This document shows, in pieces, positions 2-37,128 of a stretch of 41,528 nucleotides of DNA. How positions within the stretch are numbered: position 1 is the first letter of the stretch; each line of letters opens with the position of its first letter. The position numbers were made by a program, and so were the translations under genes. The stretch lies in NCBI GenBank assembly GCA_028293805.1, contig JAQGOC010000325.1:1-41528 (forward strand), in the 5' to 3' direction. The notes beneath the pieces were generated by a model that did not search any database, had not been told where the DNA came from, and was given only the letters and a program-made list of their open reading frames with translations. This DNA is from Gammaproteobacteria bacterium. Its GTDB lineage: Bacteria; Pseudomonadota; Gammaproteobacteria; Steroidobacterales; Steroidobacteraceae.

Positions 2-589
2 TGGAAAATCGCGATGGACAACTATCTCGAGTCGTATCACGTTCCGATCGGACATCCGGGACTGTTCCGCATGTTCACGCCTGACTACGACGACCAGGTC
101 AACCTGCCGACGGGTGTTGCCCGGGGCATCAGCTGGTTGCGCGAGCGGTTGTCCACAAAGTGGAGCGAGCGCATGTATCAGCAGCTCGTGGGCAAGGTCG
201 CGATAGGGCTCCCCGAAGCGCACCGCAGGCGCTGGAGCTTCTACAGCATGCTGCCGAATCTGGGGATAGACGTGTTTCCGGACCAGATGGACTTCTTCCA
301 GGTGCTGCCGCGCGGTCCCGGCAAATGCACGGTCCGGGGCGGGTCGTTCGCCCATCCTGATGACAGGCGCGAGATGAAGATCGTTCGCTACTTATCCACG
401 CGCATCAACCGGCAGGTCCAGCGGGAGGACGAGTTCCTATGTCGCCGCGTGCAACAGGGACTCGCATCGAGCAGCTATGAGCCGGGGCCACTGTCGAAGC
501 TCGAGAACTGCATGTTGGAGTTTCATGACCTGTTGCGGGGGAAGATTCCGGAAGCGGCCTGCCTGAGCGCACCTGCGACGTTCGCGTGA
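2..589 (+). CDS. Rieske non-heme iron oxygenase alpha subunit, C-terminal catalytic part (5' end outside window)
   Basis: The reading frame is open from the window edge and begins in the WK...DNYLESYH segment that opens the catalytic domain of ring-hydroxylating oxygenase alpha subunits. Counting from the ATG at 14, His9 and His14 (H-x4-H) and Asp139 in the segment REDEFLCRR are the expected 2-His-1-carboxylate iron ligands. The tail VQQGLASSSYEPGPLS is also typical of the family. The Rieske domain must lie upstream of the window. The DNYLE-YHVP loop and the QREDxxLCxxVQxGL motif resemble choline-monooxygenase-like members as well as aromatic dioxygenases, so the substrate is uncertain. The neighbours (BetI-like regulator, polyamine-type transporter, TmpA/TmpB-like pair) make a quaternary amine the better guess. 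The gene converges with the fusion regulator, whose C-terminal half is a degenerate relative of this protein. Confidence 0.85.
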   Translation, partial: WKIAMDNYLESYHVPIGHPGLFRMFTPDYDDQVNLPTGVARGISWLRERLSTKWSERMYQQLVGKVAIGLPEAHRRRWSFYSMLPNLGIDVFPDQMDFFQVLPRGPGKCTVRGGSFAHPDDRREMKIVRYLSTRINRQVQREDEFLCRRVQQGLASSSYEPGPLSKLENCMLEFHDLLRGKIPEAACLSAPATFA

Positions 590-685: not shown

Positions 686-2329
686 CTAGGGGTTTTGGGG
701 TACTTTGCCGACGAGCGGGAACAGATCGGCAATCGAGCGACGAAACTCGGCGAGAGCGGGTGTAACGGGTCCCGTTTCGAGGACTTCATCCGCGGCTGCC
801 ACGAGCCCGGTTTGAGTCGATTCGGCGAGCTCGACCTGCTGAGCGACCCAGACATCGATTCGTCGACGGCCGTCTGGTTCCTCTCCACTCTCCTGCCTCG
901 CTCGCTTGCGGCCCTTCTGTGCCCCTGCGGAGAAGTCCAGGCGCTGGAGGCGGCTGCGGCCGGGCGCTTCGGGCAGCACGCGCAGAATGGATGCACCCTC
1001 GGGTCGGATCTCGACCCAGTGATTCGGCGCCACAAAGCGACCCCGCGACGGCGAACTTTCCAACCACTGCTCGACCACCAGCTTCCAGTCAGCGGCAAGC
1101 TCGGTTTCCTGCATGCTCGTGGGCGCCAGCGCCGCGAGCCCAACCCAACCGCTCGAGTCCGTGCCTCCTTGCGCATCGCCTCCCTGCGCGCCGTCCGCCT
1201 GCATCGCGCCGGGCGCGCGCACGAGGATCAGGCCATCCTGTTGTTTCACGTCGAGCGGCGTCAGATCCCCCGCCGCTTCGCCGTTGGTCAGCCTGCCATC
1301 GAATTTGTACGTGAGTCCATGCGGCGCACAGGGTATCGCGCCAACGAAATGACCTTTGCGAACACTAACGAGGGCATGCGGCCGCCGCCGACATGCGTTC
1401 CGATAGGCACGCAGTCTGCCTTTCTCATCGCGGACCACCAGCGCTCGCTCGCTCGCGAGATCGCCTGCCAGGAAATCGCCGGCGGCAGGCATCTCCGCTT
1501 CGTGGCCGATCACCTGCCACGCGGGTCGAAACAGCCGCGCACGTTCGACAGCCAACAGAGCCCCATTCGAATAGGACGAGCTCGGCAAGCGTGCTCCAGT
1601 CGCTCCGGGAGCAGGCGCAGCACTCCGGCGGAGCGTCCCGCGGCCAAACTGGCCGGGAAACACCGATCGCAGGAACGCCATCGACTGCGCCCGCGCGACC
1701 GCTCGATCGACGTCCGCCTCGCGTTGAAAGGCGATTCCCTGCCAAAGGACTTCGAGCGCTCCGATGAGTCCCAGCGCGATACCATCCGTATCGAGATGAG
1801 ACTCGCCCGTCGTGACAATGACGCGCTCGATCAGATCCCGCACCAGCGCCGCGAAGTCCTCGTCCTTGCGTCCGCAGATGTCGTAATACTCCTGCCGCGA
1901 GCTGGCCTCGCCCCAGAACGAGTACCAGACGGAAACTTTCCGGGGGCTGGCGATCTCGGCATCCAGATACAGGTCCACGAGCAGCTCCAGCGCCTCGACA
2001 GGAGTGTCCCTGAGCTGCGCGACGGGAACGAGCACCCGCTCCTCGAACTCCGCGGCCAGATAGGCGAGGGACGCGACCAGCATCGCGTCCTTGGAGTCGA
2101 AGTAGAACCGCACGATGCCCGGCGACATCTCCGCGATCGCGACCACCTTCTCGACGGTCGTCCGCGACGGCCCATGAATGTGCAGGGCGGAGATGCAGGC
2201 GTCGATCAGCCGCTGACGCTGCCGCACCCTGGAGGCGCGCTCAGGGACCGCCTCGACGGTCTGCTTAGGCTTGCGTGCGGACACCACGTTGTTTCGGGTC
2301 ACTCTCGATGCGCCTGTGGATCTGGACAA
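686..2329 (-). CDS. Fusion regulator: BetI-like TetR repressor joined to a catalytically dead Rieske-oxygenase alpha domain
   Basis: One uninterrupted frame of 547 residues. Residues about 33-225 are a TetR/BetI protein: helix-turn-helix around 52-80 (RTTVEKVVAIAEMSPGIVRF), then a ligand domain with VWYSFW and ALEVLWQG segments like those of choline-sensing BetI. After an Ala/Pro-rich linker (230-248), residues 250-547 follow a Rieske oxygenase alpha subunit end to end: LFRPAWQVIGH, VVRDEKGRLRAYRNAC, IPCAPHGLTYKFDG, ADWKLVVEQWLES, TQTGLV. The Rieske ligands are C313, C334 and H337, but the first His is R315. Aligned with the oxygenase at 2-589, the iron ligands H, H and D become P427, F432 and Q498. 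I infer a sensor pseudoenzyme. The start is uncertain: TTG at 2329 is the longest, with GTG at 2302, 2287 or 2284 as alternatives. It is divergent from the permease genes and convergent with the intact oxygenase. Confidence 0.85.
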   Translation of the reverse strand: MSRSTGASRVTRNNVVSARKPKQTVEAVPERASRVRQRQRLIDACISALHIHGPSRTTVEKVVAIAEMSPGIVRFYFDSKDAMLVASLAYLAAEFEERVLVPVAQLRDTPVEALELLVDLYLDAEIASPRKVSVWYSFWGEASSRQEYYDICGRKDEDFAALVRDLIERVIVTTGESHLDTDGIALGLIGALEVLWQGIAFQREADVDRAVARAQSMAFLRSVFPGQFGRGTLRRSAAPAPGATGARLPSSSYSNGALLAVERARLFRPAWQVIGHEAEMPAAGDFLAGDLASERALVVRDEKGRLRAYRNACRRRPHALVSVRKGHFVGAIPCAPHGLTYKFDGRLTNGEAAGDLTPLDVKQQDGLILVRAPGAMQADGAQGGDAQGGTDSSGWVGLAALAPTSMQETELAADWKLVVEQWLESSPSRGRFVAPNHWVEIRPEGASILRVLPEAPGRSRLQRLDFSAGAQKGRKRARQESGEEPDGRRRIDVWVAQQVELAESTQTGLVAAADEVLETGPVTPALAEFRRSIADLFPLVGKVPQNP

Positions 2330-2333
2330 ACCC

Positions 2334-2347
2334 TGTACACACGTACA
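2334..2347. promoter_or_regulatory. Inverted repeat TGTAC-N4-GTACA, candidate operator of the fusion regulator
   Basis: A 14-bp site with perfect 5-bp arms and the spacer ACAC lies in the roughly 60-bp gap between the divergent fusion regulator (start about 2329) and the permease gene (start 2392). TetR-family repressors bind such palindromes next to their own genes. It is the only obvious palindrome in this gap. Binding by this protein is inferred from position only. Confidence 0.45.
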
Positions 2348-2364
2348 AGTTTATCGCGCACAAT
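2336..2364 (+). promoter_or_regulatory. Weak candidate promoter for the permease genes
   Basis: TACACA (2336-2341) and CACAAT (2359-2364), 17 bp apart, each match 4 of 6 bases of the sigma-70 boxes. The -35 box would lie inside the palindrome at 2334-2347, so bound repressor would block it. The matches are poor and the call rests mainly on position. Confidence 0.25.
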
Positions 2365-2391
2365 AGCCTGAAGGCACCCCATAGCGTGTTA

Positions 2392-3282
2392 ATGAAACTG
2401 ACCGCGCGCCCGGGCCGCTGGCTCATCATCCTCCCGCCGCTGCTGTTCCTGCTGGTGTTCTTCCTCATCCCGTTCGCATTCGCCTTCAAGATCAGCTTCG
2501 CCGAAGTCGCGGCACGGGTACCGCCGTTCACCGATATTCTCTCGAGCTCCCCCGGCCGCGGGCTGCAGCTCACCCTGAGCCCGTCGAACTACCAATACCT
2601 GTTCACGGACGAAGTCTACGGCTATGCCTACCTGTACTCGCTCAGGACCGCGTTCTTCTCGACCCTGATCTGCCTGGGCCTCGGCTATCCCATGGCGTAC
2701 GCGATCGCCCGGGCGTCGAAGTCGACGCAGAACATTCTCCTGCTGATCATCATTCTGCCGTTCTGGACTTCCTTCCTGCTGCGCGTGTATGCGCTCGAAG
2801 GCATCATCCGCGATAACGGCATGCTCAACACCGTGCTGCTGCATCTCGGGGTCATTCATCACCCCTTGCACATCATGCGCACGAGCCTCGCGGTCTATCT
2901 GGGAATCATCTATTCCTATCTTCCTTTCATGGTGCTGCCGCTGTTTGCCACGCTGGAGAAGCTCGACGCTACGCTGCTCGAAGCGGCCGCGGACCTGGGC
3001 AGCCCGCCGTGGCGCACGTTCATCGATGTGACGCTGCCGCTGTCGATACCCGGGGTGATCGCCGGTTCGATGTTGGTGTTCATTCCGGCGGTCGGGGAGT
3101 TCGTCATTCCCTCGCTGCTGGGCGGTCCGGACAACCTGATGATCGGCCGCGTCCTGTGGGACGAGTTCTTCGGAAATCACGACTGGCCGGTCGCCTCCGC
3201 CGTGGCGATCGCCTTCCTCGTGCTGCTGGCCGGCCCGATCGCGATCTACCAGTACTACAACGTGAAACAGCTCGAGCCGTAG
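2392..3282 (+). CDS. ABC transporter permease, PotB-like (spermidine/putrescine type)
   Basis: A 296-residue inner-membrane permease with about six hydrophobic segments. The first (residues 10-32) follows the short N-terminus MKLTARPGRW. The EAA loop that docks to the ATPase is clear as EAAADLGSPPWRTFIDVTLP, and VGEFVIPSLLGGPDNLMIG is typical of PotB. I chose the ATG at 2392. An upstream ATG at 2275 would add 39 residues that do not look like this family and would run into the divergent regulator. The gene is followed after 5 nt by the PotC-like permease, so the two are co-transcribed. Related permeases serve polyamine, aminoethylphosphonate and other amine importers; the flanking oxidation genes suggest a quaternary amine or its phosphonate. 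No ATPase gene lies in the window. Confidence 0.88.
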   Translation: MKLTARPGRWLIILPPLLFLLVFFLIPFAFAFKISFAEVAARVPPFTDILSSSPGRGLQLTLSPSNYQYLFTDEVYGYAYLYSLRTAFFSTLICLGLGYPMAYAIARASKSTQNILLLIIILPFWTSFLLRVYALEGIIRDNGMLNTVLLHLGVIHHPLHIMRTSLAVYLGIIYSYLPFMVLPLFATLEKLDATLLEAAADLGSPPWRTFIDVTLPLSIPGVIAGSMLVFIPAVGEFVIPSLLGGPDNLMIGRVLWDEFFGNHDWPVASAVAIAFLVLLAGPIAIYQYYNVKQLEP

Positions 3283-3287
3283 CGCAA

Positions 3288-4112
3288 ATGGAAAAACGCC
3301 ACTCACCGCTGCTGCTGTCCATCCTGTGCCTGGGGATCGCGCTGCTCTATGTTCCGATCCTGACGCTCATCGCCTATTCGTTCAACGCTTCGCCGCTGGT
3401 GAATGTGTGGGGTGGCTTCTCCACCATGTGGTACGCCGAGCTCATTCATAATCGGCAGCTGCTGGGGGCGGCCCTACTGTCATTGGAAGTCGCGGTCACG
3501 GCCTCCACGGTTGCGGTCGTACTGGGCACGCTTGCCGCGATTGCGCTCGTACGCTTCGCCAGGTTTCCGGGCCGATTGCTCCTCACGGGCATGGTGAACG
3601 CGCCTCTCGTGATGCCTGAGATCATCACGGGCATCACACAGCTGTTGCTGTTCGTCTCGATGCTGCAGATGTTCTCGTGGCCGCATCGGGGCTTCACCAC
3701 GATCGTCCTCTCTCACGTCGCCTTCTGCACCGCTTACGCGACGATCACTGTGCAATCACGCCTGCAGAGCGCCGACCGATCGCTGGAGGAAGCCGCGATG
3801 GACCTCGGGTCCGGGCCGGCGCGCGCCTTCATCGAGATCACGCTGCCGATCATCGCGCCGGCGCTGCTGTCGAGCTGGTTATTGAGCTTCACTCTGTCGT
3901 TGGACGATCTCGTGATCTCGAGCTTCGTATCCGGACCGGGCGCCAGCACCCTACCCATGGTCATCTATTCGAAAGTGAAGTTAGGCGTGAGCCCCGACAT
4001 CAACGCCCTCGCGAGCCTCATCATCATCGGCGTCGGTGTCTGCGTCATCGCCGCCGGCTATCTCATGCGTCGCGCGCAGAGGCAAAGAGAGCTCGAAACG
4101 AAGTTCCCTTAG
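3288..4112 (+). CDS. ABC transporter permease, PotC-like (spermidine/putrescine type)
   Basis: A 274-residue second permease of the importer. It starts MEKRHSPLLLSILCLGIALLY with an N-terminal membrane segment, and its EAA loop reads EAAMDLGSGPARAFIEITLP. The segments PLVMPEIITGI and FTLSLDDLVISSFVSGPG are characteristic of PotC/PotI. The start is the ATG at 3288, five bases after the stop of the PotB-like gene; the open frame extends further upstream but only inside that gene. It would form the heterodimeric channel with the preceding protein. It converges with the HD-domain gene at 4165, with no clear terminator between them. Substrate is not known from sequence. Confidence 0.88.
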   Translation: MEKRHSPLLLSILCLGIALLYVPILTLIAYSFNASPLVNVWGGFSTMWYAELIHNRQLLGAALLSLEVAVTASTVAVVLGTLAAIALVRFARFPGRLLLTGMVNAPLVMPEIITGITQLLLFVSMLQMFSWPHRGFTTIVLSHVAFCTAYATITVQSRLQSADRSLEEAAMDLGSGPARAFIEITLPIIAPALLSSWLLSFTLSLDDLVISSFVSGPGASTLPMVIYSKVKLGVSPDINALASLIIIGVGVCVIAAGYLMRRAQRQRELETKFP

Positions 4113-4164: not shown

Positions 4165-4764
4165 CTATGCAGGATCCCGGCCCGTATAACGCGGGTCGTG
4201 AGGGGGTCGACCGAAGATCTTGCGCACCAGCGGCTCGAACTCCTCGAGCGGCTTCGTCGGGTACTCCGGATCGAATGACGCCTGGTCCCAACGCGCGCAG
4301 AACGCCTCGCAAGCGGCATACCACTTGTGCCCCTTCAGTCGATCGCGCGCATTCCGATCCCCACCCATGTGGTGCACGTAGTAGTACGACTGTACCAACC
4401 CATGGTGCTCGACTATCCAGGTCACCTCGGGGCGGACATACGGCCGCAGGATTCCCGCAGCAATTTCTGCATGATTGTAGGGAGCGAGCTCATCACCGAT
4501 ATCGTGAATCAGGGCCGCGACCACCAGCTCCTCATCCGCCCCATCGGCCAGCGCGCGGCTCGCGACCTGCAGGGAGTGCCCGAGCCGGCTGACGGGGTAG
4601 CCTTGCAGGGAGTGATCGAGCTTGCGCAGCGCATCCAGGACACGATCGGGCAAGCCCACGGCGTACTCCCGCTCGGAGCGGTCCAACAGCAGATAATCCT
4701 CGCGCGTGCCGTCCTGCATTCTGCGAAAACTGACCATTGGGCCCATTTGACTCTCCAGGCTCAT
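4165..4764 (-). CDS. HD-domain protein, TmpB/PhnZ-like mixed-valent diiron oxygenase
   Basis: A 199-residue protein with metal ligands placed as in an HD fold: H63 (LGHSLQ), H87-D88 (LIHDIGD), H98 (YNHAEIAA), H120/H121 (VEHHGL) and D160 (RWDQ) or D165. PhnZ and TmpB use this fold as a mixed-valent di-iron oxygenase to split a hydroxylated phosphonate C-P bond. TmpB acts on the hydroxylated trimethylammonio-ethylphosphonate and yields glycine betaine and phosphate. I assign the TmpB-like role because the gene directly follows a TmpA-like dioxygenase. The start at 4764 is set by GAGGAG seven bases upstream, just past the stop of that gene. A longer frame to 4854 would overlap it by 80 bp. Alternatives are a nucleotide phosphohydrolase or a myo-inositol-oxygenase-type activity on another compound. 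Confidence 0.7.
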   Translation of the reverse strand: MSLESQMGPMVSFRRMQDGTREDYLLLDRSEREYAVGLPDRVLDALRKLDHSLQGYPVSRLGHSLQVASRALADGADEELVVAALIHDIGDELAPYNHAEIAAGILRPYVRPEVTWIVEHHGLVQSYYYVHHMGGDRNARDRLKGHKWYAACEAFCARWDQASFDPEYPTKPLEEFEPLVRKIFGRPPHDPRYTGRDPA

Positions 4765-4774
4765 GCGGCTCTCC

Positions 4775-5917
4775 TCAATCCGAACGGCCGGGCGATTGCG
4801 CAACTGGCGAGGATGGCCGGCGACGCAGGACGCGATACAGACTCCGCGGTCCATCGATGTCGATATAACAACCCTGCAGATGGCGCTGCCCGGCCGCGGG
4901 ATCGAACCCCGTTCGACCGTGCAGGAGGCGGCGGTTATCCATCATGAGGAGCTCACCGGCGTCGAGCCGGAAGCGAATCTCGAATTCGGGGGAACGCAGC
5001 AGATGATCGAAGGCGCGACGGGCCCGATAGTAGTCCGCAAGGTCCTCGGGCAGCGCCAACGGCACGAAATCAAGTCGCGGACTGAAATTGATCGCCTGCA
5101 CCCGCCCCATGACATCGAGCTCGATCGGCGTCGCGCTGGCCACCAGCTCGGTGGTGTCATCCCGGTAGCGAAATCTCACCGGCGTACGCGAAAGCAATTG
5201 AAAGGCCTCGACGTCGCGTGTGCGCAGCGCCTCCGCGGCGGCGTGACCATCCACGAGAGTGGATAAACCGCCGGAGGTCTCGTTGATCAGGCAATGAAGA
5301 AGCTGGACGCCCGGCACCGGCGCGCGATAGGGATTGTCCGTGTGCGGATCCAGAGGCAGCGACGTATAGGCGAGATCACTCGCCTCCGGCACCGAGCGCA
5401 CCTCGAACAGGGCACCGAAGTTGGTCTGCCTCGTAAAGCCGAACGTGGCGGCGACCTGCAGGACCGTGCGGGGAACAGGCGGCACCCCCCTCAGAATGAG
5501 GAAGCCGTACTCCAGGAAAGCGCTGATCCAGCCCGCCAGTTTCGCATCGGCCGGGTGGCTATCCCACTCGGCCCGCGGGAAACTCGTCAGCGTCCCATTC
5601 CACGGGCGCGCAGCGGGAATGTCGTGCTCGCCAGGGGCGAGCACCGCTTCGGCCAGCAGCTCCTGCCCTAGAAAATCGGCCTCGTGGCCATCGCTGAATC
5701 GCACACGCAGACATCCGGGCCGCGGCTCCGAAACGGCGCTCAGGGCCAGCCCCAAATCCAGATCAGAAGGATCCTGCAGACGCTGCCCCGTCCGCAGGTC
5801 GAACGTCTGCGGATCCGGACAGCGCTCCCGCAGCCAGATCGGATGGAGCGCGAAGCGTTGGCCGCTGTCGAGCTCGATAGTGAGTTCCGTGGGAGAAGTG
5901 ATTTGCAATCGCGGCAT
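4775..5917 (-). CDS. Fe(II)/2-oxoglutarate dioxygenase of the gamma-butyrobetaine hydroxylase family, TmpA-like
   Basis: A 380-residue protein of two parts. Residues 1-95 resemble the small N-terminal domain of gamma-butyrobetaine hydroxylases (TIELDSGQRFALHPIWLRERCPDP). Residues 120-365 form the TauD-type core with the iron ligands H192, D194 (HTDNPY) and H333 (NRRLLHGRTGF), and R345 as the likely 2-oxoglutarate ligand. The family hydroxylates trimethylammonium substrates: gamma-butyrobetaine to carnitine, trimethyllysine, or (TmpA) trimethylammonio-ethylphosphonate. The HD gene just downstream favours the TmpA role; carnitine synthesis remains possible. The N-terminal zinc cluster, several Cys plus one His in the human enzyme, is reduced to a single Cys (C33). 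The gene starts 7 nt after the stop of the PotD-like gene and is clearly in one operon with it. Confidence 0.8.
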   Translation of the reverse strand: MPRLQITSPTELTIELDSGQRFALHPIWLRERCPDPQTFDLRTGQRLQDPSDLDLGLALSAVSEPRPGCLRVRFSDGHEADFLGQELLAEAVLAPGEHDIPAARPWNGTLTSFPRAEWDSHPADAKLAGWISAFLEYGFLILRGVPPVPRTVLQVAATFGFTRQTNFGALFEVRSVPEASDLAYTSLPLDPHTDNPYRAPVPGVQLLHCLINETSGGLSTLVDGHAAAEALRTRDVEAFQLLSRTPVRFRYRDDTTELVASATPIELDVMGRVQAINFSPRLDFVPLALPEDLADYYRARRAFDHLLRSPEFEIRFRLDAGELLMMDNRRLLHGRTGFDPAAGQRHLQGCYIDIDGPRSLYRVLRRRPSSPVAQSPGRSD

Positions 5918-5924
5918 GATGGAG

Positions 5925-7100
5925 TTACTTCGCCGTCTTGATTCGGGTCCAGGTGCGCGTGCGGATGCGCTCGAGCGCCGGGCTGACTTCCGCGGACTGA
6001 TACAACCTGGTCTCCACTTCCGCAGTGGGGTAGACCGCGGGGTCGTTCAGGACTTGCGGATCGACAAACGCGTTGGCCGCGAGGTTGTCGTTCGCATAAT
6101 GGATCTCGTTGGTGACCGCGGCGATGACGCGCGGCTCGAGCATGAAGTTCAGGAACTTGTGCGCGGCGTCGGGATGCGGCGCCCCGGCGGGAATCAGCAA
6201 CGCGTCGAAGGAAGCGTTGGCGCCCTCCTTCGGCACTGTGAATGCGAGGTTCACTGCCAGGCCGGCGGCCTTGGCGCGGGCCCGGGAGGTGGCATAGTCA
6301 CCGGACCAGGACATGGAGAGGCAGAACTCCCTGTTGGCGAGGCCGTTCATATACTCGGTGGAGTCAAATGCGCGGATGTACGGACGCACGGCAAGAACCA
6401 GCCGCGCGGCACGCTCGTAGTCCTCCTTGCGCTGTGTATTCGGGTCGATGCGCAGGTAGTTGAGCGCGAGCTGCAGGACATCCTCGGCCGAATCCAGCAG
6501 CGTCACGCCGCAATCCGCGAAGCGCGCGATGACCTGCGGCTTGAAGATCATGTCCAGGCTGTCGAGCGGCGCATCGGGCATACGCGCCTTGATCAGGTCG
6601 ACATTATAGGTAAAGCCGTTGACGTGCCGCAGATAGGGCATGGCGTGCCGATTCCCGGGGTCCGCTCCCGCCTCGCGGGCGAGCACGTGCGGATTGAGAT
6701 TCTTCCAGTTCGGCAGCTTGCCGCGATCCAGCGGCTGGTAGATGCCGGCCTTGATCTGGCGACTGAAGAAATCGGTCGACGCGCTCACCACGTCATAGCC
6801 CGAGTCGCCCGCCATCATCTTGGCCTCGAGAGTCTCATCGGCGTCGTAAGTGTCATAAACGACTCTGATGCCGGAGGCGCGCTCGAACTCCGCCACTGTG
6901 TTCTTGCCGATGTAATCCGCCCAGTTGTAGACGTACAGCACCTTCTCTTCAGGGGCTCTACCCACACGCCCGGACGCCACATGCGGATCGGGACTACAGG
7001 CACCGAGCGCAGCAGCGGTCAGCAGCACCAGCCTGCCGGAGGGCGCGACCGCCGCAAGCAGACTTGCGCAACACGCCAGCAGACGCGTCGGCGTCATCAT
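5925..7100 (-). CDS. Spermidine/putrescine-type ABC transporter substrate-binding lipoprotein, PotD/PotF-like
   Basis: A 391-residue periplasmic binding protein. The mature part begins KVLYVYNWADYIGKNTVAEFE, the hallmark of PotD/PotF, followed by VVYDTYDADETLEAKMMAGDSGYDVVSAS. The N-terminus is hydrophobic and ends in LGAC (C35), a lipobox, so the protein is probably a lipoprotein anchored to the membrane rather than freely soluble as in E. coli PotD. Two ATG codons lie in tandem at 7100 and 7097; I use the first. It is the first gene of a leftward operon with the TmpA-like and TmpB-like genes, while its permeases sit on the opposite strand and converge on that operon. Length is near PotF (370). 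The usual acidic polyamine contacts cannot be judged by eye, so the ligand may be another cationic amine. Confidence 0.85.
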   Translation of the reverse strand: MMTPTRLLACCASLLAAVAPSGRLVLLTAAALGACSPDPHVASGRVGRAPEEKVLYVYNWADYIGKNTVAEFERASGIRVVYDTYDADETLEAKMMAGDSGYDVVSASTDFFSRQIKAGIYQPLDRGKLPNWKNLNPHVLAREAGADPGNRHAMPYLRHVNGFTYNVDLIKARMPDAPLDSLDMIFKPQVIARFADCGVTLLDSAEDVLQLALNYLRIDPNTQRKEDYERAARLVLAVRPYIRAFDSTEYMNGLANREFCLSMSWSGDYATSRARAKAAGLAVNLAFTVPKEGANASFDALLIPAGAPHPDAAHKFLNFMLEPRVIAAVTNEIHYANDNLAANAFVDPQVLNDPAVYPTAEVETRLYQSAEVSPALERIRTRTWTRIKTAK

Positions 7101-7140
7101 GGGGCCCGCTCGAGGTTTCCGCGCAACCAGGCGTCCTGTA

Positions 7141-7170
7141 TTATTGACACGATAATAATAACGGTGCAAG
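7141..7170 (-). promoter_or_regulatory. Candidate sigma-70 promoter of the PotD-like/TmpA-like/TmpB-like operon
   Basis: Read leftward, TTGCAC (7165-7170) and AATAAT (7141-7146) are separated by 18 bp. They lie about 40 bp upstream of the ATG at 7100, in an unusually A/T-rich patch for this genome. No palindrome as clear as the one at 2334-2347 is visible here. Confidence 0.4.
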
Positions 7171-7213
7171 GCATCGGCGTGCACCTTCTGGCCCGTGGGA
7201 ACTGTAACCGCCC

Positions 7214-7654
7214 TCAAACGCTCGAGGGCAGCTCGAAGAGACTGGTGCCGATGATATCCAGCACCTGCACACCCGATTGCGTGGTCAGCAGCCAGCGCCA
7301 GCGCACGATCCCGACCTTTCCGGAGCTCGAGACACGGCTCTGGAGCACCTCCACGGTCAGGGACACTTCCTCCCCCGGCCGCAGCGGGTTCGGCCATTTG
7401 ACCTGCTCGAGCCCGGGGGAGCCGATGGATTCGGAATCCGTCAGCACATGGGTCACCAGCAGTTGCATGGCGATCGAGCAGGTCAGCCAGCCGCTGGCGA
7501 TGAGGCCCTGCCAGCGACTGCCAGCGGCCCGCTGCGGATCGGTATGGAACCACTGCGGGTCGTACCGGGTCGCGAACTCTATGATCTCCTCTTCCGTGAC
7601 GCGGCGCCGCCCGGCGCTGATGATCCTGCCCGGCTTGAATTCTGCAAACTTCAT
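7214..7654 (-). CDS. MaoC-like hot-dog dehydratase
   Basis: A 146-residue single hot-dog protein of the MaoC/(R)-enoyl-CoA hydratase superfamily. It starts MKFAEFKPGRIISAGRRRVTEEEIIEFATRYDPQWFH; the region VTEEEIIEFATRYDPQ-FHTD contains the Asp and His of the hydratase motif. Downstream it has LIASGWLTCSIAMQLL and LRPGEEVSLTVEVLQSR. Such proteins add water to trans-2-enoyl-CoA, but many have no known substrate. The frame extends upstream to 7816, but the family homology starts at the ATG at 7654. It lies upstream of the PotD-like operon on the same strand with a 113-bp gap that contains a separate promoter candidate, so it may not belong to that pathway. Confidence 0.8.
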   Translation of the reverse strand: MKFAEFKPGRIISAGRRRVTEEEIIEFATRYDPQWFHTDPQRAAGSRWQGLIASGWLTCSIAMQLLVTHVLTDSESIGSPGLEQVKWPNPLRPGEEVSLTVEVLQSRVSSSGKVGIVRWRWLLTTQSGVQVLDIIGTSLFELPSSV

Positions 7655-7864
7655 GCGGCAACATTTTGCGCCAACACCGGCAGGCTCCGCCAAAAATCGC
7701 GGCACGAGGGTGACGTGGGCAGTGAAACCTCCCCAAGCGCCACGTATCGCCATAGAATCGGACGAGCGCGCGGCCGAGCCGGCGCCAAGGTTGAATGGCG
7801 CGTCGCTGTCCCCCATCCCCTTGTCCAGGTCTCGTGCCCGGTTTCCAGGAGATACGTTTCCGTG

Positions 7865-8953
7865 ATGACGCTATTCCGGCCGCTACGCGCCGGCGACCTG
7901 CAGCTCGATAATCGAATCGTGATGGCGGCGCTGACCCGTGCACGCGCCGGGCGCACCCATATACCGAACGACCTGATGGCCGAGTACTACTCGCAGCGCG
8001 CCTCCGCGGGACTGCTGATCACCGAAGCGACGATGATTGCGCGAGATCAGTGCGCTTTCACGGGCGAAGGCGGGGTATTCGATGCGGCCTGCGTGGCGGG
8101 TTGGCGGAAAGTGACTGCTGCCGTCCACGCCCGCGGGGGGCGAATCATCGTCCAGCTATGGCATGGCGGCCGGGCGGCCCACTCCCTCCTGAACGGTGGG
8201 CTGCAGCCGGTTTCGAGCACCGACCGCGCGATCCGCGGCGGCACGATCCGCACTCCGGAGGGTCCAAAGCCTTATGAAGCGCCACGACGGCTGCGGACGG
8301 ACGAGCTCCCGGGAATCATCGAACAGTTTCGGGCGGCCGCGAGGCTCGCCAAGGAGGCTGGCTTCGATGGTGCCCAGATTCATGGCGCCCATGGCTACCT
8401 GCTGGACCAGTTTCTGCGTGATGGCGTCAACGATCGAACGGACGAGTACGGCGGGGCGCTGCCCAATCGCGCCCGGCTGTTGCTCGAGACGGTCGATGCG
8501 GTGGGCCAAATCTTCGGTACGGGTCGCGTCGCCGTGCGCATCTCGCCCCTCGTCGGCCTCAACGACATGGACGACTCCAACCCGGAAGAGCTCGTGAAAT
8601 ACATCGCGACCGAACTGAACCCCCGCAGGATCGCTTTCCTGGAAATCCGGCATGCCGATCACCGTGCGCCGGCCGAGCAGACGCTGGCGAGGATTGCGCG
8701 GGAGCACTTCAAGGGTGCACTGTTCGTCAACGGCGCCTATGACTTCGAATCCGCCCGCCTGGCGCTGGAAGGTGGCGGCGCCGATGCAGTGGTGTTCGGG
8801 AGACACTTCGTTTCGAACCCCGACCTCGTCGAACGCTTCTCGAGCGGCGCGGAGCTCAATGCGGTGGATACCGGCACGTTGTACACACCCGGCCCCGCGG
8901 GGTACACGGACTATCCCGCGTTGAATTCCGAGCGTGAGCCGCAACGGGCCTGA
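7865..8953 (+). CDS. Old yellow enzyme family FMN-dependent ene-reductase (NemA-like)
   Basis: A 362-residue flavoprotein of the OYE/NemA type that reduces activated C=C bonds of enones, nitro-esters or similar compounds with NADPH. It starts MTLFRPLRAGDLQLDNRIVMAALTRARA, with T24 at the flavin-tuning position. H173, H176 and Y178 in QIHGAHGYLLDQFL are the substrate-binding His pair and the proton-donating Tyr. NDRTDEYGG and the C-terminal phosphate-binding region DAVVFGRHFVSNPDL complete the barrel. The ATG at 7865 is preferred; the upstream open frame runs antisense through the MaoC-like gene. It is divergent from that gene and is followed 10 nt later by the phosphoglycolate phosphatase gene, probably as a two-gene operon. 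No regulator is adjacent. Confidence 0.9.
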   Translation: MTLFRPLRAGDLQLDNRIVMAALTRARAGRTHIPNDLMAEYYSQRASAGLLITEATMIARDQCAFTGEGGVFDAACVAGWRKVTAAVHARGGRIIVQLWHGGRAAHSLLNGGLQPVSSTDRAIRGGTIRTPEGPKPYEAPRRLRTDELPGIIEQFRAAARLAKEAGFDGAQIHGAHGYLLDQFLRDGVNDRTDEYGGALPNRARLLLETVDAVGQIFGTGRVAVRISPLVGLNDMDDSNPEELVKYIATELNPRRIAFLEIRHADHRAPAEQTLARIAREHFKGALFVNGAYDFESARLALEGGGADAVVFGRHFVSNPDLVERFSSGAELNAVDTGTLYTPGPAGYTDYPALNSEREPQRA

Positions 8954-36045: not shown

Positions 36046-37128
36046 TCAACCCCCCGGCATTGCATCGGGGACCTCGGCTGGCTTGGGCCCTGCATGGCCC
36101 AAGGGGGCGCCCCGGTGCTCCGATTCTATCATCGTCTCCAGCAAACGCCGGCCCTGCATGGCGCCCGCATCGGCCTTGACCGCCACCTTGTAGGCCGGAT
36201 CGAAGTCTCCATCGCCCAGCACGGTTTGCTGCGCTTCGAGCATCTCGCGGTCCTCGTCGAACGTGCGACGCACGTTCTCGCGCAAGAACTCGGTGACCTC
36301 GGGCTCGTCCAACCGGAAATTGCGGGCGAACGCCCAGAAGTAGTGCGACGTCGAATCCGTTTCCGGGGTCACGAGATTGATGACCCGGCCCTCGACCCTG
36401 TTGGAACCTTCGATGGCCTCGAGTGGCTGTACCCCTACGTCGATGACGCAATATCCCGGCGGCTGATAGGTGGTGCGCTGCCAGCGCTGCACATTGGCAT
36501 TGGCCGGAACGCGGGCCAGGTATTGATAGAACGGCGGCGGGTTGCAGCTCGCGATTTCTTTCGTGACGCAGACCAGCTTATCCGTGTGTCTGACCTCGAC
36601 CGGCGTCTCCGCAACGGACTCGTGGCCGATCGTATGCACGTGGACGTAGGTTTCGTGGGACAGGTCGAGCAGGTTGTCGTTCAGCAGCTTGTAGCTGGCG
36701 CTGATCGGGTGGTAGCCCTCGCTCGCAATCCAACCCGGCCCATCCATCCAGTGAACTTCCGGGATGAGATCCGGGTCGGCGCGCTCCTCGGCGCCCATCC
36801 AGATCCACGCGAACGTATACCGCTCGACGACCGGAAACGTGCGCACTCTGGCCTTCGGCGGGATGAGCGTTTGGCCCGGGATGAAGATGCATTTACCCGT
36901 CGCGTCATAACGCAATCCGTGGTAACCGCAGCGCAAGCTGTCGCCCAGCAGTTTGCCTTTGGACAGGGGCGCCGAGCGATGCGGACAGCGGTCCTGCATG
37001 GCTACGACCTTGCCCCTGGAGGACCGCCAGAGCACCACGGGCTCCTTCAGCAGCCGTCGGCACAGCATCCGGCCCGCCACGATCTCCCTGCTGAACGCGG
37101 CCACTTGCCAACAATTGTTCAAGTACAT
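36046..37128 (-). CDS. Rieske oxygenase, vanillate O-demethylase (VanA)-like
   Basis: A 360-residue single-component-length Rieske oxygenase. The 2Fe-2S ligands are C48, H50, C67 and H70 (CPHRSAPLSKGK, LRCGYHGLRYD). The iron site H158-x4-H163 lies in NLLDLSHETYVHVHTIG, the VanA-type arrangement. It starts MYLNNCWQVAAFSREI with GGGGAA just upstream. VanA-type enzymes oxidise an O- or N-methyl group and release formaldehyde; the nearby fghA gene fits that chemistry. The reductase partner (VanB type) is not in the window. If it acts on vanillate, it would duplicate the THF-dependent LigM route; other methoxy or N-methyl substrates are equally possible. Confidence 0.87.
   Translation of the reverse strand: MYLNNCWQVAAFSREIVAGRMLCRRLLKEPVVLWRSSRGKVVAMQDRCPHRSAPLSKGKLLGDSLRCGYHGLRYDATGKCIFIPGQTLIPPKARVRTFPVVERYTFAWIWMGAEERADPDLIPEVHWMDGPGWIASEGYHPISASYKLLNDNLLDLSHETYVHVHTIGHESVAETPVEVRHTDKLVCVTKEIASCNPPPFYQYLARVPANANVQRWQRTTYQPPGYCVIDVGVQPLEAIEGSNRVEGRVINLVTPETDSTSHYFWAFARNFRLDEPEVTEFLRENVRRTFDEDREMLEAQQTVLGDGDFDPAYKVAVKADAGAMQGRRLLETMIESEHRGAPLGHAGPKPAEVPDAMPGG

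Follow-up and report, generated by a model that had tools for sequence, protein, structure and literature searches.

A single open frame of 547 amino acids (686-2329, minus strand) in the window, which is the whole 41,528-nucleotide stretch of DNA analysed here, links a repressor of TetR/BetI type to the alpha fold of a Rieske oxygenase (RO). The oxygenase half has lost its catalytic iron ligands, and its Rieske loops keep a C-x4-H...C-x2-H motif that is the same in all 44 distinct fusions of this kind, referred to below as dead fusions. Judged from the fusion and its TetR and BetI-type domains, the lost iron ligands, C313/H318/C334/H337, the divergent Pot-type permeases and the intact relatives, there is an even chance that the protein represses the divergent Pot operon as a one-component regulator whose former oxygenase half would be a regulatory, metal-bearing domain.

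On this reading, the gene would go back to two genes, one for a TetR protein and one for an RO, in a cluster for the uptake and catabolism of a putrescine-type amine. The TetR half would bind the region between the fusion and the Pot genes and repress the latter. The former oxygenase half would carry out no catalysis and would fold around a remade C-x4-H...C-x2-H site holding [2Fe-2S] or Zn, through whose metal or redox state it may modulate the TetR half, or it may act as a structural or dimerising domain. Catalysis would be left to a separate, intact oxygenase.

Domain architecture and recurrence of the fusion

The initial annotation had read a TetR-RO fusion in one frame, which the open frame and the Pfam domains confirm, and its residue numbers and coordinates were right. 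The frame begins at a TTG as listed, and the true start may lie further in. The fusion, its domains and its partner oxygenase are as follows.

686-2329, minus strand: TetR/BetI-type repressor joined to a catalytically degenerate RO alpha fold, 547 aa (open frame, Pfam, 44 distinct fusions)
2072-2206, minus strand: TetR_N helix-turn-helix (HTH) domain, residues 42-86 (Pfam 24.3 bits, cut-off 24)
1658-2002, minus strand: TetR_C_6/BetI-type ligand domain, residues 110-224 (Pfam 44.8 bits, cut-off 27)
1265-1519, minus strand: Rieske-fold domain, residues 271-355 (Pfam 39.7 bits, cut-off 20.3)
710-1093, minus strand: vestigial RO catalytic domain, residues 413-540, with P427/F432/Q498 at the iron-ligand positions (sequence and alignments; A413, W415 and P453 invariant)
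2-589, plus strand: RO alpha subunit, C-terminal part, iron ligands present, convergent partner (Ring_hydroxyl_A 135.8 bits)

Both parts of a TetR-family protein, the HTH domain and the C-terminal ligand/dimer domain, are found in the 547-residue protein by Pfam, and many HTH columns are nearly invariant among 38 aligned fusions. Of the features of an RO alpha subunit, the protein retains a match to the Rieske profile; it lacks C-x-H...C-x2-H and the 2-His-1-carboxylate, and its Ring_hydroxyl_A match at residues 433-522 (15.7 bits) falls under the Pfam cut-off of 24.9. As in an enzyme-derived regulator, a DNA-binding domain is thus joined to an enzyme homologue without catalytic ligands (Pfam, 44-row alignment). 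The partner oxygenase is convergent with the fusion, with 96 bp between the stops and iron ligands present in its C-terminal part, so the earlier description of an intact oxygenase face to face with the fusion holds. The partner is cut by the contig start, and its own Rieske domain therefore does not lie in the window.

The window is contig 17 of a metagenome-assembled genome (MAG) with 392 contigs and 4.92% contamination, figures that lend some colour to the idea that the fusion was made by an assembly or sequencing artefact. However, this idea is refuted by the recurrence of the fusion as 44 distinct sequences, one from the window and 43 from loci in other genomes, and it retains next to no probability: a fusion that recurs in this way is neither an assembly error nor chance. 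Exact duplicates and cut or broken copies were taken out before the 44-row set was made (the contig-cut or broken L050, L058, L061, L064, L072 and L075, the truncated L078 and L085, the contig-cut L086 and the fragment L155); near-identical rows were kept, so the 44 sequences are not independent.

Searches at wider scopes also returned the fusion. The fusion profile matched in 33 of 296 genomes of the order (E 1e-60 or better, the window's own among them), in 26 of them over both halves as counted among the matches listed. The public genome collection contains 55 loci that code for a relative, the last six being weak TetR-only matches, and the named loci with relatives come from MAGs labelled Proteobacteria, Gammaproteobacteria or Steroidobacteraceae. 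Among plasmid records, 71 matched the window's protein and 988 an intact fusion, none of them with a coverage of 80% or more. The initial annotation had raised the possibility that homologues in related genomes appear as two separate proteins. Separate halves do occur, in two alphaproteobacterial records and as some TetR-alone relatives, but 13 of 57 same-genus genomes have one protein matching both halves; in one more the protein is cut, and the other listed matches are mostly RO only.

The iron site and the Rieske site

In an ungapped reading from W415, P427, F432 and Q498 stand at the partner's His, His and Asp positions. MAFFT alignments put gaps in the loop of P427/F432, and ligand counts depend on the alignment: in the 44-row alignment no dead fusion has a histidine at either iron-His column (0/44) and nine have Asp at the third, whereas a different alignment puts a histidine at the first iron-His column in a single dead fusion, L068. 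The loss of the mononuclear iron ligands claimed in the initial annotation is borne out by the sequence and the alignment. The idea that the domain senses the oxygenase's own substrate or redox state found support in no test; the residues that would hold the iron are gone, and a BetI-type ligand domain is present in the TetR half itself.

The Rieske site has changed in a different manner, with one canonical ligand position altered and four residues kept.

1391-1393, minus strand: C313, first Rieske cysteine, invariant (44/44)
1385-1387, minus strand: R315, where the first Rieske histidine is canonical (His here in 7/44)
1376-1378, minus strand: H318, invariant His at Cys+5, proposed replacement ligand (44/44 dead fusions, 6/7 intact fusions, 0/48 partner oxygenases)
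1328-1330, minus strand: C334, second Rieske cysteine, invariant (44/44)
1319-1321, minus strand: H337, second Rieske histidine, invariant (44/44)

The Rieske CxH of the window's protein reads CRR (C313-R-R315). Where the column of the first Rieske histidine does not hold His, it holds R, Q, V, A, E, K or I, and the entropy of this H+2 column (2.57 bits) is above that of the median column (2.26). On a tree of 37 dead and seven intact fusions, H+2 changed at least four times and H+5 once. Nine columns are invariant among the 285 filled in at least 80% of the 44 rows, namely C313, H318, L320, C334, H337, L356, A413, W415 and P453. Among these, C313, C334 and H337 are canonical ligands, and H318 was singled out after the alignment had been seen. 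Four of the rows left out of the set (L050, L058, L061 and L072) also show the C313/H318/C334/H337 residues, and L064 and L075 are without the first ones. Describing the Rieske domain as dead was thus half right: the first histidine is free to vary, but C313, H318, C334 and H337 are present in 44/44. The retention of C313, C334 and H337 and the change to CRR had been noted correctly in the initial annotation, which missed H318.

All canonical ligands are intact in the 48 partner oxygenases, which have A, T or S at the H318 position. Among 24 further ROs, a histidine is found there in one, by elimination the fragment L155, a piece of a dead fusion, and L163 is the one intact fusion of seven with Ser. 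The best solved relative by sequence is the carnitine oxygenase CntA (PDB 6y8j; E 4.7e-29 for the Rieske half, 5.8e-49 for the intact fusions), whose cluster is bound by Cys86, His88, Cys106 and His109 according to the available part of its source (PMC7948474). In the alignment, CntA has a histidine at Cys+5 as the dead fusions do; since its cluster uses other residues, the Cys+5 position need not bind metal. The notion that H318 is a newly evolved ligand was rejected, because a histidine is already present in 6/7 intact fusions and CntA. The H318 position may be seen as offering a putative ligand ready for use, and C-x4-H...C-x2-H is possibly a remade metal or cluster site.

It has also been considered that the vestigial catalytic pocket might still bind the pathway substrate, as an enzyme-derived ligand domain like that of BzdR would. 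The BzdR precedent, as far as the available part of its source describes it (PMC3602430), and the amine pathway genes nearby would suit such a role. However, the stretch with the two iron histidines consists of alignment gaps in most rows (40/44 and 33/44), and five of the nine invariant columns lie at the Rieske loops. This reading has only a slim chance.

Intact fusions, losses and selection

Seven diverged gammaproteobacterial relatives (L144-L147 and L161-L163) are single-frame fusions of TetR and RO in which C/H/C/H and Glu/His/His/Asp are complete (7/7); in CntA, the bridging Glu is E205 (PMC7948474, available part). Three belong to the window's family, one elsewhere to the order and three elsewhere to the class. 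Class-wide, five of 369 genomes match at E 1e-45: the window's own, three with intact fusions and one with TetR alone. In a phylum-wide draw of 398 genomes, 22 match the intact-fusion profile (E 1e-110), none of them over the TetR domain (query start at least 190), and a TetR-like stretch adjoins the RO in five of 20 loci fetched from these matches. In the two alphaproteobacterial records examined, Shinella zoogloeoides and Rhizobium sp. SL42, TetR, Pot-type ABC, aminotransferase and RO are separate genes of one cluster. One genome, G207, has an intact fusion and, elsewhere, a TetR gene followed in the same direction by an RO gene, their open frames overlapping.

G207:C34:25105-26882 (L189 4552-6449): consecutive TetR and RO genes with overlapping frames, unfused, in the fusion's order

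The separate, overlapping and fused arrangements look like successive stages, an order in time that we infer. At L161 4114-5421 (minus strand) and L162 7164-8561 (plus strand), intact fusions are followed by a tandem second RO with intact ligands, and these tandem ROs perhaps form mixed trimers.

The Rieske tree (70 of 122 rows) places the dead halves in one clade (100/100) and the partner oxygenases in another (100/100). The intact fusions fall in two places, and a single clade uniting dead with intact fusions has a p-AU of 0.187, which neither establishes nor rejects it. On the TetR tree, dead fusions, TetR-alone relatives and intact fusions stand apart from two outgroup rows, with long branches flagged as risky. 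Within the fusions on this tree (56 labelled rows) sit copies that are TetR alone or broken, a pattern that requires at least six changes between fused and lost-or-broken states, four when broken copies are left out, and several TetR-alone relatives adjoin an intact RO. The Rieske half has therefore been lost or broken in several lineages and is dispensable in some, and the TetR half occurs without it.

These losses, together with the intact RO beside TetR-alone relatives, would be expected if the TetR repressor works through its own BetI-type domain and the fused dead enzyme is a decaying passenger, being lost lineage by lineage. The faster evolution of the Rieske half points the same way, with dN/dS of 0.24-0.68 in the 26 pairs whose TetR halves are most alike, compared with 0.08-0.33 for the TetR half (one of the 26 pairs undefined) and 0.11-0.46 for the partner oxygenase (the 21 pairs having one); these NG86 values are rough, with dS often around 1 or above and rows shared between pairs. 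However, none of the 26 pairs has a Rieske half with dN/dS as high as 1, 44 distinct sequences retain the frame, and an invariant four-residue metal-type motif (44/44) is not expected of a passenger. The Rieske half is constrained, under weak purifying selection and less so than the TetR half. Simple decay is considered rather unlikely.

ROs are often alpha-3 trimers, and the dead half might instead be a pseudo-subunit that joins the intact oxygenase next to it, an association by which the repressor would read or titrate the enzyme. An RO of OX type, with 59-76% identity to the query, is encoded separately in 21 of 22 dead-fusion genomes picked from the order-wide match list and tested at E limits of 1e-40 and 1e-60; in the exception, G117, the fusion is cut near a contig end. 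Such an RO also lies within the stretch fetched at 38 of the 44 dead-fusion loci; of the remaining six, three extend less than 2,310 bases on that side. The partner is of the same RO subfamily as the intact fusions, and CntA itself is an alpha-3 trimer (PMC7948474, available part). Against such a subunit role, the RO does not adjoin the fusion in three g33 genomes, and TetR-alone genomes retain the RO without a dead half; the arrangement is judged unlikely. The seven intact-fusion genomes have no RO at least 55% identical to the query at these same E limits, their stand-alone RO matches being 46% (G207), 40% (G670), 41% (G450) and 33% (G142) identical. The genome from which the window comes has a further OX-like gene at G000:C199:29016-29669 (L003, L101, L112), with about 74% identity to the window's partner across 72 residues; cut by the contig end, it is either a paralogue or comes from a second strain, the MAG having the contamination given above.

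For the preferred reading of a regulatory, metal-bearing domain, the relatives with an intact tail hint at a path from enzyme to sensor. It is tentatively proposed that an RO became a sensor in natural steps, from separate to overlapping genes and then to an intact fusion, after which catalysis was lost and a C-x4-H...C-x2-H metal or [2Fe-2S] site with a shifted histidine as ligand came to sense redox, oxygen or iron for the control of amine uptake. Living bacteria contain TetR-RO fusions of both kinds, with the catalytic site intact or lost, as well as unfused relatives and later losses, so each step is testable. Should H318 prove to ligate a cluster, the site would count as Rieske-type but with its histidine shifted.

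Gene neighbourhood and comparison with known systems

The neighbours of the fusion are genes of Pot-type putrescine transport and of amine catabolism. The Pot-like genes and the elements upstream of the fusion are as follows.

2391-3282, plus strand: PotH-like permease, divergent from the fusion (NCBIfam PotH 377.9 bits for 2275-3282, below the cut-off of 489); the ATG at 2391 is our own reading
3009-4112, plus strand: PotI-like permease, true start downstream of 3009 (NCBIfam PotI 329.3 bits, below the cut-off of 476)
5925-7943, minus strand: PotF-like substrate-binding protein, residues 330-672 of the frame matched (NCBIfam PotF 383 bits, below the cut-off of 636)
2350-2365, plus strand: TTTATCGCGCACAATA, promoter/operator-like element in the divergent intergenic region (similar block in 18/67 upstream regions, by eye)
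2334-2347, plus strand: TGTAC-N4-GTACA inverted repeat, candidate operator, not conserved (in 1/71 upstream regions, the window's own)

Homologous loci, of which one representative each was scanned, add a class III aminotransferase, FAD amine-oxidase/CrtO-like and choline-dehydrogenase-like proteins and an aminobutyraldehyde dehydrogenase. A gamma-glutamylputrescine-synthetase-like cluster gene lies near five of the seven intact fusions (L144, L145, L147, L161 and L162); L163 adjoins Pot genes, and L146 is near neither gene set in the stretch fetched. The only pathway match at a curated cut-off is the aldehyde dehydrogenase, at that of a subfamily, and for this reason the substrate is named no more closely than as, probably, an amine of putrescine or quaternary type. 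Other genes of the window include a TmpA/gamma-butyrobetaine-dioxygenase-like enzyme (4775-5917, minus strand) adjoining an HD-domain TmpB/PhnZ-like protein (4165-4854, minus strand), a pair in which a quaternary-ammonium or phosphonate side branch is possible, and a weak Rieske/GbcA-like match of 19 bits (36046-37128, minus strand), separate from the fusion. Elsewhere in the window's genome, a TetR-like match lies inside a 770-residue open frame (G000:C265:5864-6208, L113).

The upstream block, counted by eye in the divergent promoter region, resembles TTTATCSCGCACAATA. This TTTATC...GCACAAT block occurs exactly once in the genome and at one further site with two mismatches, which would be in keeping with a local target. 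Gapped inverted repeats in the upstream regions yielded no common operator. The commonest 5-base repeats occur in 7/44 regions, compared with three in shuffles, and were set aside as an operator because the stretch runs into the permease gene.

Within the open-licence literature searched, no TetR-Rieske fusion, Rieske pseudoenzyme or odd Rieske ligation such as a shifted His was found described, in line with the initial annotation, which knew of no regulator of this build. MliR was checked as an HTH-Rieske precedent and, on the available part of its source, rejected. The closest comparison for the TetR half is BetI, which has the N-terminal and C-terminal TetR domain families in common with the fusion; in contrast to BetI, the fusion is far under the BetI equivalog cut-off (71 vs 201.3 bits) and carries an extra 300-residue tail. 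PutA is a trigger enzyme, and the fusion of enzyme and regulator is known in trigger enzymes. The intact TetR-RO relatives would likewise, from their sequences, be enzyme and regulator in one chain, with all catalytic and cluster ligands in the fused chain (7/7), whereas the window's protein is without catalytic iron ligands.

For the oxygenase half, CntA resembles the dead fusions in the histidine at Cys+5, but has all canonical ligands and no TetR domain in what is available of its description (PMC7948474). The TetR-RO regulator is a new architecture, and the remade Rieske site would be a new element; the change from enzyme to regulator is already known, for example in BzdR (PMC3602430, available part). 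Members of the BzdR family have an N-terminal DNA-binding domain joined to a shikimate-kinase-like domain, and there too a former metabolic enzyme has lost its activity and been put to regulatory use, as the available part of the source relates (PMC3602430). The window's protein differs in its TetR-type DNA-binding domain, in having a Rieske oxygenase instead of a kinase and in keeping a metal-type motif. In addition, fusions with intact ligands occur here in nature, whereas those described for BzdR, in the same part of that source, are synthetic chimeras (PMC3602430).
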